Assembly: GCA_030706785.1 (NCBI GenBank)
Contig: JAUZNW010000022.1
Coordinates: 1 to 32,892 of the forward strand
Direction of reading: 5' to 3'
Origin: Bacteroidota bacterium
GTDB lineage: Bacteria > Bacteroidota > Bacteroidia > Bacteroidales > VadinHA17
Length of the DNA stretch: 32,892 bases
Part shown: positions 3,232 to 24,970 of the stretch, piece by piece
Position numbering within the stretch: the first letter of the stretch is position 1
How the letters are laid out: each line of letters begins with the position of its first letter
Translations under genes and position numbers: made by a program
Notes under the pieces: model-generated
Told to the model about the DNA's origin: nothing
What the model saw: the letters and a program-made list of their open reading frames with translations, nothing else
The model's database searches: none

Positions 3232-4815
3232 TCATTTTGCTCTGCTGAAATCCAGGTCCTGGAAATCATAACTGAAGTCGGTCAATGGCGAAATGGCTTC
3301 CATTTTAATTCCGGAAGCTTTGCCGGTTTTGTCGAGGCAAAACATCACATAGGCATCAGCATCCATGCTCCTGTCATTCCATTTTACAATAAATGTGGTC
3401 CCCTTATATGCAAACATCTCTCCTGTCAGCTTCATAGATCTTTTCGAGTCGAACCAAAGGTTCCCGTTCTTCACGGATATAATGGCATCACCAAACCAGT
3501 TATCTGAATAGGTTCCTGTAAAAAGTGTATCATTAACACTTATAGATGCGTTTTTTTGCTGAGCCCCGATGTTTTTCCAGATCTCATCCGTGACTTTTTT
3601 TGCATTGTTCTGCGCTCCCGTTTCGCTTTCCCTGTACTGCTTTACCCTGTCGATCCCTTTAATACCAAAATATCTGTCCTTGATAGTATTTGAAATAGCA
3701 TTGAAAGCAGCGCCGGATTGCTGATTTGTAAACACGATAATTCCAAGCTTCAGTTCAGGAATAAGTGTCACCTGTGTCACGATTCCTGCCAGCCCTCCAG
3801 TATGGCCAACCTGCTTATATCCCTTTACATCGCTCAGGAACCATCCCAGACCATAACTTGAAAAATGAGTATTATAAGCTGTCGGATTGGTGACTTTTAT
3901 TATAGTCTGGGGCGACCACATTTCCCTGTGGACCTCCTCGCTGAAAAGTCTGTTCTTTAATCCTTCACCGTACCTGCCATCGTTCATCTGCATTATGATC
4001 CACTTACACATGTCGGTTATGTTGCTGTATATTCCGCCTGCGGCATTTCCCACTTCATTGAAATTAAAATCACGATCGATTACCTGCACAACTCCATTGA
4101 CAGGTGCATGCGGATCGATAACATTGCTTTTGTCTTTCAGCCTGCTGTAGGCTGCAGCGCTGGCTGTCATGTTCAGGGGTTTCATGATCCGTGTTTCAAC
4201 AAAATCCTCCCATCTCATTCCGGAAGCCCTTGCAACCACCTCCCCTGCAACGATGAACATGAGATTATCATAGTCATATTTTGTCCTGAAGCTTGAAACT
4301 GGTTTTAAATAGCGCAGGTTATGAATAATATCCTTTAGTGTAAAATCATTCAGTCCGGGCCAGATCATAAGATCGCCCGCACCCAGGCCAAGTCCGCTTC
4401 TGTGGGTAAGCAGATCCCTGATCCTGAACTCCTCTGTGACATATGGGCTGTACAGCCTGAATTCGGGGATATAATCGATCACCTTATCGTCCCATGATAA
4501 TTTTTTCTCATCGACAAGAATTCCCAGTGCTGCCGAGGTAAAAGCCTTGCTGTTGGATGCGATTGCGAACAGGGTGTTTTCATCGACTTTCAACTTAGTG
4601 TTCAGTGATCTGACACCATAACCTCTGGAATGAATGACCTTGTCGTCTTTTACCACTGCGACTGCGATTCCCGGAACATCGAATGTCTTCATTGTCTTTT
4701 CGACGAGACTGTCTATCTCTCCGGAGGAAATAGTCTGGGCAACAATAGATATGAATCCAGCAAGTAAGAGTGTGGTAAAAAGTAAACGACTGATGACGCG
4801 ATTGGTTTTTTTCAT
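3232..4815 (-). CDS. Secreted serine hydrolase, class C beta-lactamase/PBP4* family
   Basis: A 527-residue protein with a Sec signal peptide (~1-27) and the penicillin-binding-protein/class C beta-lactamase fold. The catalytic SxxK is S87-N-S-K90, the YxN motif is Y182-D-N184, and the third motif is H338-T-G340, the form usual in the esterase/peptidase branch (KTG in true beta-lactamases). The flanking VGHTGGLAGI and YGLGW stretches fit this family. Residues ~400-520 form a separate C-terminal beta domain of the DUF3471 kind, common in Bacteroidota members. Such proteins cleave D-amino-acid peptides, esters or beta-lactams, so the substrate cannot be assigned. It is the first gene of a probable operon with the unknown secreted protein, behind a good promoter at 4891-4922. 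Confidence 0.9.
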   Translation of the reverse strand: MKKTNRVISRLLFTTLLLAGFISIVAQTISSGEIDSLVEKTMKTFDVPGIAVAVVKDDKVIHSRGYGVRSLNTKLKVDENTLFAIASNSKAFTSAALGILVDEKKLSWDDKVIDYIPEFRLYSPYVTEEFRIRDLLTHRSGLGLGAGDLMIWPGLNDFTLKDIIHNLRYLKPVSSFRTKYDYDNLMFIVAGEVVARASGMRWEDFVETRIMKPLNMTASAAAYSRLKDKSNVIDPHAPVNGVVQVIDRDFNFNEVGNAAGGIYSNITDMCKWIIMQMNDGRYGEGLKNRLFSEEVHREMWSPQTIIKVTNPTAYNTHFSSYGLGWFLSDVKGYKQVGHTGGLAGIVTQVTLIPELKLGIIVFTNQQSGAAFNAISNTIKDRYFGIKGIDRVKQYRESETGAQNNAKKVTDEIWKNIGAQQKNASISVNDTLFTGTYSDNWFGDAIISVKNGNLWFDSKRSMKLTGEMFAYKGTTFIVKWNDRSMDADAYVMFCLDKTGKASGIKMEAISPLTDFSYDFQDLDFSRAK

Positions 4816-4890: not shown

Positions 4891-4922
4891 CAAAGTTACA
4901 TCCTGTTCAATCCAAAACCAAA
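4891..4922 (-). promoter_or_regulatory. Bacteroidota-type promoter for the serine hydrolase operon
   Basis: On the minus strand a -33 TTTG (4922-4919) is followed by 20 bases and the -7 box TAACTTTG (4898-4891), an exact match to TAnnTTTG. This is the primary sigma-factor promoter form described in Bacteroides. It would start transcription near 4885 and leave a leader of about 70 bases before the ATG at 4815. Confidence 0.6.
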
Positions 4923-4948
4923 TTTAGTTGAAAAGGACCCTTTTGTAT

Positions 4949-17979: not shown

Positions 17980-18954
17980 ATGGACAACAAAGAAAACTTA
18001 AGGAATGAAAATCTGGCTGATACCGGCAGATTAGAAGCTGCCCGGAAGGAGGGCCGCTCAAAAGGGGTTCTGCTGACCGCAATCATCAGCCTGATAATTC
18101 TGCTGGCTCTTGGTATACTGGGCTATGCCCTATACAACCGCGATCACAACAATCAGGTTGCATTGATGGAAAGCCAGAAGAACTCATATATGGAGCAGCT
18201 CACAGCCCGTGATTCAATGATCAATGACTGGCTGACGACTTTTGACCAGATTGAGAAGAATCTGAACCTAATCAAGGAAAAGGAGAAAATCCTTACCGTG
18301 AAGTCATCAACAAACACTGAAGTCTCCAAAGACAGGAAAGCACAGATCATGGAAGACATCAAGGACATCAACACATTGATCGATGAAAACAAGAAAAAAA
18401 TTGCCAACCTGAACGCTCAGCTGAAAAAATCAGGAGCAACCATTAAAGGCCTGGAGACAAGGATCGCCAGCCTTGAGGAATCGATGAAGCAGTATGAAGC
18501 CCAGATTACAGATCTGAAGACCACAATCGACAGCAAAAACACCGAGATCGGACAACTTAACAATAATGTTGTTGCTCTCAAGGATACCGTCTCGCAGCAG
18601 GGTCAGACGATCAGAACCCAGACCAGCAAGCTGAATCAGGCATTCTACGTCTCAGGTACTTATAAGGATCTGAAAGAAAAGGGTATACTTACGAAAACAG
18701 GAGGATTTATTGGTCTTGGCAGGAAAGAGTTATTTATGAGTGATGTGCCGGCCAATCTGTTTAATGAGATTGACTTGACCCAAACCAAAACAATCCCAGT
18801 GAATGCAAAAGATGTAAAGCTCATTACAGAACATCCTTCAAGCTCGTATGAACTTGTACGCGAAAATCCTAATGAAGTGGCCTATATTTCGATAAAGAAT
18901 CCGGAAGAGTTCTGGAAGCTGTCAAAATATGCGGTTGTTGAGCTGAAGAAGTAA
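17980..18954 (+). CDS. Membrane-anchored coiled-coil protein of unknown function
   Basis: A 324-residue protein. After a ~30-residue charged N-terminus there is one TM helix (~30-50, GVLLTAIISLIILLALGILGYAL). A long periplasmic coiled coil follows (~60-215, heptads such as KKIANLNAQLKKSGATIKGLETRIASLEESMKQYEAQITDL). A compact C-terminal domain (~218-324: FYVSGTYKDLKEKGILTKTGGFIGLGRKELF...) ends it. I recognise this as a type common in Bacteroidota but not its function. A strong AAGGAGG lies 8 bases before the ATG, unusual for this phylum and suggesting high expression. It sits behind the beta-barrel gene and ends at the terminator at 18990, so the two probably form one unit bridging the envelope. 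Confidence 0.85.
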   Translation: MDNKENLRNENLADTGRLEAARKEGRSKGVLLTAIISLIILLALGILGYALYNRDHNNQVALMESQKNSYMEQLTARDSMINDWLTTFDQIEKNLNLIKEKEKILTVKSSTNTEVSKDRKAQIMEDIKDINTLIDENKKKIANLNAQLKKSGATIKGLETRIASLEESMKQYEAQITDLKTTIDSKNTEIGQLNNNVVALKDTVSQQGQTIRTQTSKLNQAFYVSGTYKDLKEKGILTKTGGFIGLGRKELFMSDVPANLFNEIDLTQTKTIPVNAKDVKLITEHPSSSYELVRENPNEVAYISIKNPEEFWKLSKYAVVELKK

Positions 18955-19055: not shown

Positions 19056-19133
19056 TCTTTTTTTGTTAATAAAATCACTGCTAATGTTATTTATTTCCAA
19101 AACATTACACCCTCTTTCTTCTTACCTTCTTCT

Positions 19134-19234
19134 TAACTTTGTGTCAGGCCGGCATCCATTCGCCTTTCCTATTCTGGAATTAGCACAATAAAATACTGAC
19201 TAACAACTTAAACAAAACGGAGGCCGGCCATTTT
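19134..19234 (+). ncRNA. Candidate structured small RNA, copy 1
   Basis: A TAACTTTG box (19134-19141) is followed by 5 bases and then by GGCCGGCATCCATT (19147-19160). This pairs with AACGGAGGCCGGCC (19216-19229) in 12 of 14 positions, so the RNA's 5' and 3' ends form one long stem. Inside, TTCC/GGAA (19166-19169/19176-19179) closes the loop TATTCT. The whole element is homologous to copy 2 at 19746, including the promoter box. It lies upstream of the 62-codon ORF, so a leader function for that ORF is an alternative. The rest of the 18955-19357 gap holds a terminator and one palindrome. Confidence 0.55.
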
Positions 19235-19262
19235 AAAGAGGGAGCTGTTCTGATATTTTTTA

Positions 19263-19278
19263 CGGATTAAATAATCCG
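19263..19278. other. 16-bp palindrome upstream of small ORF
   Basis: CGGATTA (19263-19269) and TAATCCG (19272-19278) form perfect inverted repeats separated by AA. With such a short centre it is more likely a protein-binding site than an RNA hairpin. It lies between small RNA copy 1 and the small ORF. Confidence 0.35.
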
Positions 19279-19357
19279 GTACTGATCTAGAATATTTTAA
19301 GAATCTAAACGTTATTCTGATGTATCTGTAGGTAAGTTTTAATCTTTTAAAGGAGAA

Positions 19358-19546
19358 ATGATAACTATGGAACAGGAAGAAGCATGCAGTTCAATCCATG
19401 TAAGCGCTTATAAAATGAGCCTTGCAAAACAGCTGGAAGAAAATTCCAGGAAGCTGATGGAGCATTACCGGAAGCTACAGGACCAGCAGAAAGAAACAGA
19501 AGGCCAGAAGCAGGAAATCCTGAGTTTTGTCTGTGACTGGCAGTAA
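19358..19546 (+). CDS. Small charged coiled-coil protein (about 60 residues)
   Basis: A 62-codon ORF with 59 residues if started at the second ATG (19367). AGGAG at 19351-19355 is two bases from the first ATG and 11 from the second, so the real start is uncertain. The product is mostly one charged amphipathic helix (SLAKQLEENSRKLMEHYRKL, then a QDQQKETEGQKQE stretch), with Cys near each end and no TM segment or signal peptide. I do not recognise it. It lies between the two structured RNA elements and behind a strong terminator, so it is a separate unit. Real coding status rests on the Shine-Dalgarno, codon-like composition and coherent helix. Confidence 0.55.
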   Translation: MITMEQEEACSSIHVSAYKMSLAKQLEENSRKLMEHYRKLQDQQKETEGQKQEILSFVCDWQ

Positions 19547-19745
19547 TCAGATAGTCCGGAATCGGCGTTCCATACCGGAACCGAACAATTATACATCATA
19601 AGCATACCAGGAACGGACAGGTACAAATCCGCCAAAAGTCTTTTTAATCCTTTTAATTCCTGTTTTGAACTTTAGAGGGTTATCAGTTGTTAATAACTTT
19701 ACTGATATGTTATTTAGTTATAGAAAATTCTAATACTGCTATATA

Positions 19746-19850
19746 TAACTTTGGTGACGGCCAGCATCCATTCTCATTTTCCTACTCTGGAAATTGTATT
19801 GGACCAAAATAATTGATTAATGCTAATAAAACGGATGCTGGCTTTCTTTA
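19746..19850 (+). ncRNA. Candidate structured small RNA, copy 2
   Basis: TAACTTTG (19746-19753), 5 bases, then GGCCAGCATCCATT (19759-19772). This pairs with AACGGATGCTGGCT (19830-19843): an unbroken stem of 10 pairs plus a G-U at the base, one A-C mismatch, then 2 more pairs. The 3' side runs into TTTCTTTATT, a terminator-like tail. Inner hairpin TTTCC (19778-19782)/GGAAA (19789-19793) closes loop TACTCT. Compared with copy 1, pair G-C has become A-U at stem position 5 (19151-19225 versus 19763-19839), a compensatory change, and the A-C mismatch near the stem end is shared. No gene follows on this strand, which argues for an independent small RNA. The remaining 19547-20118 gap holds only repeats. 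Confidence 0.6.
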
Positions 19851-19900
19851 TTACCCCTTCCGGATACTCATCTGAGGCTGAAATACGACTTCCTTAAATT

Positions 19901-20118: not shown

Positions 20119-20673
20119 TTATAATTTCAGTGCTATACCAATATTAAAGTAGGTGATACCATAACCCAGCTCAGCCATAACACCGAATTTCTCTTTGAAA
20201 TAATACCTTGCTCCGATATAACCTGCCAGTCTTATACCGGAGGAAGTTGCAGAATAATCGTATCCTAATGGAGTACCAAATTCATTGGCACTGACAATAT
20301 TATATCCAAGCAATATCCCCACATACGTATCCAGCTTGTTTGCGAGCGGATAATGGAAATTACCTCTGGCTCCAATAACAATGTTCGTGTATTTATAACC
20401 CCAATCGGAATATTCCCATTTATAGGATGAGAATCCGACGTAAGGTCCGACACCTATCGATCCCTTCTCAAGAACATTATCAACCACACCGAACTCAAGG
20501 GAAGCGGAAATAGGCGGTATCTGAGCATGATAATATGTTCCTGAATACCATGTGGATCCGAAACCAATACCAACGTTCAACACTTTTGTGCCCTTGCCAA
20601 AGGTTGATTCCTGTGCTGCCAGATGTGAAAGGGCAAAACAAACCAGTACCATAGATAGTAAAAATTTCTTCAT
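20119..20673 (-). CDS. Outer-membrane beta-barrel protein
   Basis: A 184-residue protein with a Sec signal peptide (MKKFLLSMVLVCFALSHLAAQ). The mature part is a run of amphipathic beta strands separated by short turns (LNVGIGFGSTWYSG, SIGVGPYVGFSSYKW, NIVIGARGNFHYPL, TYVGILLGYNIVS, IRLAGYIGARYYF, FGVMAELGYGITYFNIGIAL). This fits an eight-stranded barrel of the OmpW/Opr general type found in Bacteroidota. The ATG at 20673 is chosen because it begins the signal peptide; the longer reading frame adds 20 residues that do not fit. It stands alone; the glycerol operon ends 193 bases upstream. The substrate or role is unknown. Confidence 0.87.
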   Translation of the reverse strand: MKKFLLSMVLVCFALSHLAAQESTFGKGTKVLNVGIGFGSTWYSGTYYHAQIPPISASLEFGVVDNVLEKGSIGVGPYVGFSSYKWEYSDWGYKYTNIVIGARGNFHYPLANKLDTYVGILLGYNIVSANEFGTPLGYDYSATSSGIRLAGYIGARYYFKEKFGVMAELGYGITYFNIGIALKL

Positions 20674-20866
20674 AGTTTTTGGATTTACATTTCGACAATA
20701 GAGATTTAATACTTTGATTTCAAATAAGAACAATGGACAGGCGAATTTTGTTTAATTTTTCTTAAAAATCAAACATTTTTTCTAGACATCCGGATAAATC
20801 GGGGATGCTTCCCTGAGACCAGTTGTTTCTGGTATTGATCCAAAGTAATTTCTAGAATGTTCTCTG

Positions 20867-21580
20867 TCAGGCGCCTTTAAGAATCAGGAACATTGCCGCT
20901 GCCAGCGCTGCACCTATTGCCGGGCCCAAAATTGGTACCCAGGAATATCCCCAGTCGCTGTCACGTTTCCCCTGAATGGGCAGTAAGAAGTGCATAATGC
21001 GGGGACCTAAGTCACGGGCTGGATTAATAGCATAACCTGTCGGCCCTCCGAGCGATAACCCGATACCAAGAACCACAAGGGCAACCGGAAGTGCATTCAG
21101 TGCACCAAGCCCAACTTCAGGCTGAGCCATGTAAAGAACTGCCAATGCCAGGACGTATGTTCCGATAATCTCAGTAATGACATTGTACAGGTAGCTTCGG
21201 ATATTTGGCATTGTACTGAATACTGCCAGTTTTGAATCCCTGTCATCAGTGGCATCAAAATGCTTTTTATATGCAAGCCATACCAGGCATGCTCCGAACA
21301 TTGCCCCAAGAAGCTGGGCGGCGACATAAACAGGAACTAGCCTCCATGAAAACTTGTTTGCAATTGCAAGTGCAAGGCTGACAGCAGGATTAAGATGGGC
21401 CCCGCTGAACGGAGCTGAAATAAGAACTCCAGTGAACACCCCGACTGCCCACCCGAAGGTTATTACAATCCAGCCGCTGTTGTTTCCCTTTGTCTTGTTT
21501 AATAGTACGTTTGATACCACACCTCCTCCGAAAACAATAATGATGGCTGTTCCGAAAAATTCTGCAAAAAATGGACTCAT
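20867..21580 (-). CDS. glpF: Glycerol uptake facilitator (aquaglyceroporin)
   Basis: A 237-residue MIP-family channel with six TM helices and two half-helices. Both NPA boxes are intact: HLNPAVSLAL near 63-72 and YAINPARDLGP near 186-196. The Asp after the second NPA box (NPARD) is the usual glycerol-facilitator signature. It lets glycerol cross the inner membrane passively. It is the last gene after glpD and glpK on the same strand, separated from glpK by 102 bases that hold a tandem repeat. The length is a little shorter than E. coli GlpF (281), mainly in loops. Confidence 0.94.
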   Translation of the reverse strand: MSPFFAEFFGTAIIIVFGGGVVSNVLLNKTKGNNSGWIVITFGWAVGVFTGVLISAPFSGAHLNPAVSLALAIANKFSWRLVPVYVAAQLLGAMFGACLVWLAYKKHFDATDDRDSKLAVFSTMPNIRSYLYNVITEIIGTYVLALAVLYMAQPEVGLGALNALPVALVVLGIGLSLGGPTGYAINPARDLGPRIMHFLLPIQGKRDSDWGYSWVPILGPAIGAALAAAMFLILKGA

Positions 21581-21581
21581 A

Positions 21582-21667
21582 GGTTATTGGTGATTAGTGA
21601 TTGGTTATCGGTGATTGGTTATTGGTGATTGAATGTTGCAGGTTGCAGGATGCAGGTTGGTTGTTGA
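21582..21667. repeat. Imperfect tandem repeat between glpK and glpF
   Basis: Repeats of the form TTATTGGTGATTG occur four times at 21584-21631, followed by three TTGCAGG/ATGCAGG units at 21635-21657. The sequence resembles the TGCTGG repeats elsewhere in the window. It may lower or separate glpF expression from glpK. Confidence 0.6.
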
Positions 21668-21682
21668 TTAATTAACAATAAG

Positions 21683-23173
21683 TCAGGACGCTGCCCAGGC
21701 CTCTGCAGCTTTTACTGCACGGTGCCAGCCTTTGACAAGTGATTTCATTTTATCCTCTGGCAGTGCAGGTGAGAACCTCCTGTCAAGCTGCCACTGTTCC
21801 CTGATCTCCTCCATACTTGCCCAGTATTTAACTGCAAGCCCTGCAAGGTAAGCGGCTCCAAGTGCAGTTGTTTCAGTGATTTTCGGCCTTACAACATCTG
21901 CCCGGAGTAGGTCTGCCTGGAACTGCATAAGGTTTTCGTTTACCGTAGCTCCGCCATCCACACGTAATTCCCTGATTTTAATTCCGGAATCCTTCTCCAT
22001 AGCCTTGAGAACCTCCAGAGCCTGGAAAGCTATGCTGTCGAGGGCTGCTCTTGCAATATGTGCAGAAGTCGTCCCACGGGTTATGCCGACAATGGTTCCC
22101 CTGGCATGTTGGTTCCAGTGCGGAGCTCCAAGTCCTGCAAACGCGGGTACAAAGTAAACACCTTCACTGTCATTTACTTTTGCAGCAAGCTTTTCGACAT
22201 CAGCTGATCTGGTAATAATCCCCAAACCATCCCTAAGCCATTGAACTACTGCTCCGGCAATAAAGATACTACCTTCAAGTGCATACTGTGTCTGATTGCC
22301 TGTTTTCCATGCAATTGTTGTGAGCAGCCTGCTTTTCGATTCAATCGGTTTGCTCCCAATGTTCATCATCATGAAACAACCGGTCCCATATGTGTTCTTA
22401 ACCATTCCGGGTTCAGTACACATCTGGCCGAAAAGAGCTGCCTGCTGATCCCCGGCGATACCTGCAACCGGTATTTTAGTTGCAAATTGTCCTGATGTAT
22501 AACCATAGATTTCGCTTGAAGATCTTACATCAGGCAGCAGGCTTGCCGGAATTCTGAAAATATCCAGTAGTTCCCTGTCCCATTCAAGTGTGTGGATGTT
22601 GAAAAGCATTGTGCGGGATGCATTTGAAACATCAGTAACATGAAGCCCTCCTCCGGTAAGATTCCAGATGAGCCATGAATCAACAGTTCCGAAAGCAAGC
22701 TCACCCTTTTCAGCAAGCTTTCTCGCATCTTTCACATTTTCCAGGATCCACCTTACCTTTGTTGCCGAAAAATAGGCATCTATAATCAATCCCGTCTTTT
22801 TAAGAATTATTTCGCTCTTTCCTTCGTTTTTAAGCCTGTCACAAAATTCGGCAGTCCGTCTGTCCTGCCATACAATCGCATTATAGACCGGCTTCCCCGT
22901 TTTTCTGTTCCAGACTATTGTTGTTTCGCGCTGATTGGTTATGCCGATCCCTGCAATATCGGTGCTCCCAAGTCCTGCTTTTGCCATAGCCTCGGTGGCT
23001 ACTCCGATCTGGGACGACCATATCTCATCAGGATTATGTTCCACCCACCCCGGTTTCGGGAATATCTGTGTAAATTCTTTCTGGGCTGCAGCTATGGAAA
23101 GCCCTCTTCGGTCAAAGACAATTGCGCGGGAGCTGGTCGTTCCCTGGTCAAATGAAAGGATAAATTCGTTCAT
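21683..23173 (-). CDS. glpK: Glycerol kinase
   Basis: A 496-residue FGGY-family kinase. It phosphorylates glycerol to sn-glycerol 3-phosphate with ATP. The N-terminal phosphate-1 motif is FDQGTTSSR (8-16), the glycerol-binding residues R82-E83 lie in NQRETT, W102-Q-D104 in AIVWQDRR, and the second-domain [11 protein letters not shown] holds the catalytic Asp. The adenosine-binding [22 protein letters not shown] is intact. Length equals that of typical GlpK. It begins 22 bases after the glpD stop, so co-transcription is almost certain. Confidence 0.97.
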
Positions 23174-23195
23174 ATCGGAAAATTCTAAACTGGAA

Positions 23196-24761
23196 CTACT
23201 TCCACAAGTAATTAGTTGTTAACTTATTATAATCGTTTATCTGCTTTCCCTCCCATGCTTTGTCGAAACCTAGCTCCTCAGCCATAAGGCTTGCTACTTC
23301 CTTTCCGGCAGCAGCGCTTGCCCTTGTATCCAGGAAGAGGGACCTGGTTCTCCTTGCCAGGATATCCTCCAGGTTACGGGGCATTTCATTCCTGCATATC
23401 CACACTATCTCGGCCCTCGTGTATGGGAGTCCGGGATGAACCTTTTCCCCGAGCGATGGCTGATCATCGATCATTTTCTCAATTTCCAGTGCACTGTCGC
23501 CATAGATCTTCAGGTGTTCGGATTTCAACTGCACATGATTTGTTGAGAAACTGTAATTCCTTGTAACACATTTCTTCTTTTCAAGGATCCCTGCTTTTAT
23601 AGCCTTGTCAAGTGTTTCCTCAGCCATCCTTCGGTACGACGTCCACTTCCCTCCAATGATCGAAAGAAGGCCTGAAGGAGAAAGGGTGATCTTATGCCGT
23701 CTTGAAACCTCCCTGGTCGCTTCGGGATTATCAGGATCTGCAGCAAGGGGACGCAAACCTGCAAAAACACAAAGTATGTCTTCCTTCTTCGGTGGTTTTG
23801 TAAGATACCTGCCTGCAGTATTAAGGATAAAATTGACTTCAGATTCCAGCGCAGTGGGCTCGAGGGAAATTTTATCGAGGGGTGTGTCGGTTGTCCCCAC
23901 CACAACTTTTCCATACCATGGAATTGCAAAAAGGACGCGTCCATCGTCAGTCTTTGGGATCATAATGGCTGATCTGCTTCCAAGGAATGAACTATCGATG
24001 ACAATATGTACTCCCTGGCTTGGACGTATTGTCGGTCTTGATGAAGGATTATCCATCCTGTGTATCTCATCAGCAAATACGCCTGAAGCATTTATTACCA
24101 GCTTGGCAGAAATATTGTATTCCTCCCCGGATTCTGTATCCTTTGCCTGAACACCTGTAATCCGGTTACTCCCATCCTTAATCAGGCCAGTGACCCTGAA
24201 ATAATTAAGGACTGTCCCGCCATTTGCGACACATGCCCTTGCAAGCGTAATTCCCATACGCGAATCATCAAACTGGCCGTCATGGTACACAATTCCACCC
24301 CTAAGTCCATCTGTTTTTATCAGCGGCAATCTCTCGATAGCCTTCTTCCTGTTAATGAAATAGGATTTCCCCATGCTAAGCCGGCCTGCAAGGAGATCGT
24401 AGAACTTCAGGCCAGCAGTGTACAGAATGACATCCCAGAGTGTATAAACCGGAATTACAAACTCCTGGTTGGCAGTAAGATGTGGAGCATTTTTAAGCAT
24501 CAGGCCCCTTTCGTGCAATGCTTCGGTCACCAGGAGGATATCCCCCTGGGCAAGATATCGAACACCACCGTGCACCAGTTTTGTGCTCCTTGATGAGGTT
24601 CCCTTTGTGAAATCTGATTGTTCGAGCAGAAGTGTTTTATATCCTCTTGTTGTGGCGTCAAATGCCACCCCGAGGCCTGTCGCTCCGCCGCCGATAACAA
24701 TGACATCCCATTGCCGTGAGAGATTGTTCTGCAAATTGCGGATCATGCTGTTTCGATCCAT
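23196..24761 (-). CDS. glpD: FAD-dependent glycerol-3-phosphate dehydrogenase
   Basis: A 521-residue flavoprotein of the GlpD/GlpA family that oxidises glycerol 3-phosphate to dihydroxyacetone phosphate and passes electrons to quinone. The FAD-binding GGGATG is at 24-29, followed by the LVHGGVRYL signature and the [13 protein letters not shown] region near the C-terminal part of the FAD domain; a C-terminal helical DAO_C domain ends the protein. The ATG at 24761 has GGAGG 5 bases upstream; a longer in-frame extension to 24911 lacks any such support and is not part of the enzyme. It is the first gene of glpD-glpK-glpF. Confidence 0.96.
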
Positions 24762-24876
24762 AGTATCCTCCGTATCAGGTATTAATGTTACAAAGAATTT
24801 CCGGAAGTATGATAAAAACAGGGTGTAAAAAACTATTGAAATCCTGTCTATAACGGAGGTGTCATGAAGATAAGTC

Positions 24877-24970
24877 TTACAGAGACTCACTGAAAAGACA
24901 CAGATTTCCACAGAGTTAAAAAATATTACCTCCCTGGATCTCTATGCTACCCGGTGTTCTCTGTGTAAGT
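24877..24970. repeat. Dispersed CACAGAG-type repeat
   Basis: TTACAGAGACTCACTG, TTTCCACAGAGTTAAA and TTCTCTGTGTAAG form an imperfect inverted arrangement like those at 19901-20060 and 26865-26968. It separates the divergent glycerol operon and the isochorismatase-like gene. Confidence 0.5.

Follow-up and report, generated by a model that had tools for sequence, protein, structure and literature searches.

The window, that is, the whole 32,892-bp stretch of DNA analyzed, is the entire contig G000:C135 of a 3.65-Mb assembly of 299 contigs. On its plus strand, alignment identified two copies of a putative TAnnTTTG-type promoter box (TAACTTTG) at positions 19134 to 19141 and 19746 to 19753, a spacing of 612 bp that agrees with the ∼610 bases of the original prediction. 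We take TAnnTTTG to be the −7 box of Bacteroidota. Each box precedes a putative small RNA gene, and a small open reading frame (ORF) of 59 amino acids, coiled-coil-like by eye and ending in FVCDWQ, lies between the two on the same strand (19367 to 19546). The next gene beyond copy 2 (20119 to 20733, minus strand) is convergent and encodes a barrel-like outer-membrane protein, its match to OMP_b-brl of Pfam (24.1 bits) falling below the cut-off of 28.7. Just upstream of copy 1, the protein encoded at 17980 to 18954 matches Cbp1 of NCBIfam (204.3 bits; cut-off, 90), and a glycerol cluster at 20867 to 24911 holds aquaporin (MIP), FGGY kinase, and FAD-dependent glycerol-phosphate oxidase-like genes.

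Each copy can be drawn as an RNA of ∼85 nt with an 11-position closing stem and an inner hairpin. Copy 1, hereafter type 1, is predicted to span 19147 to 19234, with the closing stem at 19147 to 19157 and 19219 to 19229, the hairpin at 19166 to 19179, the motif UGACUAACA at 19197 to 19205, and a weak U tract (ATTTTAAA) at 19231 to 19234 that reads UUCUUU in its four type 1 orthologs. Copy 2, or type 2, is predicted to span 19759 to 19853, with the closing stem at 19759 to 19769 and 19833 to 19843, the hairpin at 19778 to 19793, the motif UUGAUUAAUG at 19813 to 19822, and the tail UUUCUUUAUUA at 19843 to 19853. The features first described from the letters were all recovered: a box, a 5-base gap of differing bases, and then the stem at both copies; inner loops of the form TAYTCT (UAUUCU and UACUCU); an A-C mismatch adjoining the stem in both; and a U-rich tail on copy 2 with no same-strand gene nearby downstream. 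The exchange of G-C for A-U at one stem pair is also real, and copy 1 carries in addition an A-G mismatch within its stem. When flanks were removed, both copies folded better than 200 of 200 shuffled sequences (z of −3.62 for copy 1 and −4.18 for copy 2). Adding flanks of 5 nt on the 5′ side and 14 nt on the 3′ side gave z values of −4.81 for copy 2 and −1.35 for copy 1, for which 21 of 200 shuffles were equally good. BLAST within the genome did not link the two copies at an E value of ≤10; their homology is accepted because of the alignment, the single model built from both, and the relatives described below. No third copy was found in this genome by BLAST or by covariance model.

Distribution and conservation of the RNA family

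An initial DNA search of 40 relatives and the genome itself returned three clear homologs in two genomes, and a first covariance model was built from these and the two copies. This model identified 15 places in 10 of the 62 genomes of the genus. A second model identified 16 places in 10 of 117 genomes of the family, all in 1 of its 15 genera, with no match in the other 55 family genomes; 52 of the 62 genus genomes had no model match. The covariance-model search proposed in the original prediction yielded family members at 16 places, the two window copies included, with the closing stem kept, at one or two model matches per member genome and at orthologous places. From 26 initial match rows, six repeats (overlapping loci) and five antisense matches (15 to 17.5 bits) had been dropped before counting, and alignment A5 used 12 of the 15 remaining loci to give 15 rows; an additional RNA-like element of genome G042 is left out of the count of 16. 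Among 393 genomes of the order, the second model matched only the two window copies and two weak candidates, in G115 (35.4 bits) and G151 (32.0 bits), which were rejected as their folds had no closing stem. The G042:C60 member, with the same 35.4 bits as G115, was accepted for its stem, motif, and tail. Filtering was stricter in these scans and the candidates scored in each genome were few (64 for the genus, 34 for the family, and 10 for the order), so that they may overlook distant members. When genome contigs were scanned with a pattern, 97 stretches were retrieved, of which 8 were true members by model and 89 were rejected (best, 24.7 bits), as were all 40 viral stretches (best, 25.6 bits). 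One lookalike from the pattern scan (locus L079, 1610 to 1703) is a Bacteroidales small SRP RNA.

Across the 16 members, the box is exact in 14, with G001 and G042:C60 deviating at one base; 13 have a gap of 5 nt between box and stem and 3 have one of 4 nt; and the RNAs measure about 67 to 86 nt from stem end to stem end. Judged by eye, most have a U-rich tail, those of copy 1 and G055 being weak. Of the 228 cells of the 16-row alignment, 97.8% are paired, and five pairs have changed on both sides. One shuffle in 500 reached this number, and slid controls gave 31 to 54% pairing and zero to three double-changed pairs. The 15-row alignment gave 98.6% pairing and four double-changed pairs; fitting to a model, as was done for both alignments, favors the structure. 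One of five covariation measures, that of further pair types, was no better than shuffles (234/500). With the outermost pair excluded, the stem holds 12 G-U, no A-C, and 5 other nonstandard cells. Together, the covariation and the 12 G-U against no A-C cells argue that the stem has been selected as RNA on the plus strand.

The RNAs are far better conserved than the bulk of their surroundings. Identity is 0.88 to 1.00 for type 2 (15 pairs from six sequences) and 0.76 to 0.92 for type 1 (10 pairs from five sequences), against 0.40 to 0.54 for upstream DNA in 19 of 20 measured pairs. Upstream of type 2 it is 0.42 to 0.54 in 9 of 10 pairs, the close pair G061/G044 standing at 0.97, and downstream it is 0.43 to 0.78. 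Type 1 flanks share 0.40 to 0.50 upstream and 0.50 to 0.95 downstream; in the close pair, downstream DNA (0.95) exceeds the type 1 RNA itself (0.91). In G001 the inner hairpin has become one with a GGCAAC loop, and in both G042 members it is not kept; there, by eye, CAGAG and CUCUG could form pairs enclosing the motif, an arrangement that differs from the computed fold. The motif UGAYWAAYR occurs in all members except that of G011 (15/16), at nt 51 in six and at both nt 43 and nt 56 in five type 2 sequences. Its mean unpaired probability ranges from 0.40 to 0.84 across members and in the window copies is not above that of the whole molecule (0.60 versus 0.60 in copy 1; 0.40 versus 0.47 in copy 2). 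In 16 of 16 folds, the closing stem occupies the 5′ end.

The family had not been recognized in the original prediction, and the window held no gathering-score match to any of 4227 Rfam 15 families; relaxing the E value to 5 brought no Rfam match for either window copy or for any of four distant members. Two known RNAs are similar in outline. The 6S-Flavo RNA (RF01685) is likewise a stand-alone RNA of Bacteroidota, with 108 model positions, and gave no covariance-model match at the elements. Bacteroidales_small_SRP (RF04183) shares the box, the gap, a GGYCRGC-type closing stem, and the U tail; even at an E value of ≤5, neither the window copies nor four distant members matched SRP. A survey of 104 motifs includes Bacteroidetes motifs, several but not all of them in Rfam, according to the portions of PMC2864571 consulted. 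In a literature search that excluded preprints and most subscription papers, no description of this RNA was found. The elements thus form a real, conserved, structured RNA family of at least two ortholog types that is absent from Rfam 15 and whose function we infer below.

Upstream motif and neighboring genes

Upstream of the RNAs lies a bipartite motif, TGTTNATAACTT followed by TTAYTTA, which in copy 2 reads TTGTTAATAACTT ... TGTTATTTAGT (19687 to 19718, plus strand) and may be an activator site. In copy 1, a degenerate version was recognized by eye (TGTTAATAAAATC ... TGTTATTTATT; 19064 to 19095, plus strand), ∼10 bp farther from the box and without a match to the strict pattern. The strict pattern of motif plus box had eight matches in 62 genomes, all eight at these RNAs, and a reversed control had none; it misses 8 of the 16 members (copy 1, type 1 of G007 and G044, G055, G001, G011, and both of G042). 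As the pattern was written from members, this result shows restriction to these genes rather than an independent discovery.

The small ORF has relatives ending in VCDWQ or ICDWQ in 10 of the 62 genus genomes, the G008 relative being a weak match with a stop, and no curated family matched its lineage-specific protein above the cut-off. All five type 1 elements and the G055 element, which is type 1-like, end 121 to 129 positions before the small ORF match (6 of 6 genomes). This fixed arrangement, together with a stem and U tract that could be a terminator, raises the possibility that type 1 acts in cis, as an attenuator or riboswitch-like leader of the small ORF, with type 2 a detached copy serving as a decoy or separate unit. 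We consider it doubtful: no small ORF lies beside the members of G001, G011, and G066 or both of G042, a TATTTTG-like box seen by eye between RNA and small ORF suggests a separate promoter, and in G021, G060, and G042:C12 the small ORF has no adjoining model match, with nothing above 10 bits even when filters were off. At the G060 locus (L149), a TAAATTTG box lies upstream of the small ORF, and behind it is a short hairpin (ACGTGA/TCACGT) that includes TTAGCAATAATATCAG; by eye, this could be a shortened type 1 relative, although the model did not match it.

Type 2 stands tail-to-tail with a barrel-like gene in five of six genomes (the window, G022, G061, G007, and G066; likeness by eye); in G044, none was seen within the 0.76 kb examined. 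The elements of G011 and G042:C71 adjoin a convergent mnmE-like gene (by eye). The additional RNA-like element of G042 (L215; G042:C60, minus strand near 3791) carries TTTTGACTAACATCC inside its inner helix and lies upstream of a TlpA-like gene, with a protein resembling that of window positions 17980 to 18954 nearby (by eye); model R2 gave no match to it.

Possible functions and candidate targets

From their sequences, copies 1 and 2 are best read, with modest confidence, as paralogous, separately transcribed genes for base-pairing small RNAs with a dedicated upstream promoter motif. With help from the bipartite site, the TAnnTTTG promoter would start transcription at the closing stem or directly beside it, and the stem with the U tract would terminate it. 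The folded RNA would present an A/U-rich internal stretch containing UGAYWAAYR, and this stretch might, on the basis of one candidate target, pair with the translation-start regions of surface-protein mRNAs and so block translation. Proteins with an RRM_1 domain, possible partners of small RNAs, were found in 8 of 10 member genomes, with no match in the window's own assembly or G044.

The same RRM_1 proteins, the highly conserved internal core, and a closed-ends fold reminiscent of 6S RNA would also suit RNAs that use the internal motif to bind a protein (RRM_1, or RNA polymerase in the manner of 6S RNA) instead of mRNA. We regard this as unlikely; 6S-Flavo had no match in 9 of the 10 genomes at an E value of ≤0.01, and the match in G001 (40.8 bits; cut-off, 85) sits elsewhere.

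For base-pairing small RNAs, targets were sought from the motif outward. The 11-mer ATGTTAGTCAA, the exact complement of UUGACUAACAU, had 10 matches in 8 genomes: 8 at model-matched RNAs, 1 at the extra G042 RNA-like element, and 1 in the leader of a lipoprotein gene of G061. With 30 matches for the reversed control, a single extra match is no excess, and it is only its place and a second site that speak for this candidate target, leaving chance as a competing explanation. The 131-nt leader precedes a lipoprotein gene followed by a PorP/SprF-like gene (names by eye; the two G061 lipoproteins had no Pfam match). Within it, AATTATGTTAGTCAAA is the complement of 16 nt of type 2, and TGTTAGTCAGTAT, a near-copy that touches the ATG, is that of 13 nt of type 1 when one G-U is allowed. 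By duplex energy, this start region ranked 1st of 977 for type 2, the runner-up only 0.1 kcal/mol behind, and 2nd of 977 for type 1, the 977 being ATG starts of mechanical ORFs of ≥100 amino acids from mixed organisms. Shuffled leaders reached the G061 duplex energy in 2 of 1,000 cases for type 2 and 34 of 1,000 for type 1; the target was found in one genome only and with the RNA's own motif, which makes the comparison circular for type 2. For copy 2 of the window, the G061 leader was outside the best five start regions.

Within the window's own genome, the start of an ACT-domain gene (L004; G000:C297 near 4913 to 4931) is complementary to copy 1 at 17 of 19 bases, with a duplex of −32.4 kcal/mol that none of 200 shuffles equaled. 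The corresponding values in the four other type 1 genomes were −13.8 to −21.9 kcal/mol, which 20 to 78 of 200 shuffles matched, so that it was rejected as a shared target and could, as judged from this pairing, be a species-specific one of copy 1. When 25 window genes were paired with each of the two copies, none stood out (lowest shuffle fractions, 0.08 and 0.10).

The two sites in the G061 leader would also suit a more elaborate scheme, in which two co-inherited paralogous RNAs under a shared dedicated activator bind one lipoprotein/PorP-SprF mRNA leader as a two-RNA combinatorial switch, type 1 adjoining the start codon and type 2 acting together with it from ∼60 nt upstream; we hold this to be quite improbable. 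That the copies are a MITE or other palindromic DNA element, as two copies with complementary ends might suggest, hardly deserves credence, given one or two model matches per genome at orthologous places, a conserved upstream motif outside the palindrome, G-U bias on one strand, and the lack of a copy 2 match in phages and a copy 1 match in plasmids; the gap, closing stem, and exact box (14/16) kept in 10 of 62 genus genomes, along with compensatory changes, uphold the initial preference for two transcription units.

Read as base-pairing small RNA genes, the elements have parallels among the Bacteroidales small RNAs FopS and GibS, both of which act on mRNAs through pairing, in the parts of PMC11697453 and PMC7366714 consulted. 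FopS, of ∼65 to 70 nt, is likewise a paralog family with canonical promoters and pairs with the start regions of SusC-like outer-membrane protein mRNAs, whereas GibS is ∼145 nt with an unstructured 5′ part (same portions of PMC11697453 and PMC7366714). Both FopS and GibS have the seed at the 5′ end, as described there; in the present family, the closing stem takes up the 5′ end, and the candidate seed lies farther inside the molecule. The Bacteroidota small RNAs covered in those parts of PMC11697453 and PMC7366714 are from Bacteroides. A covarying, strongly conserved family with its own upstream motif is a new case in uncultured Bacteroidales, and both its candidate seed and its candidate target can be tested.
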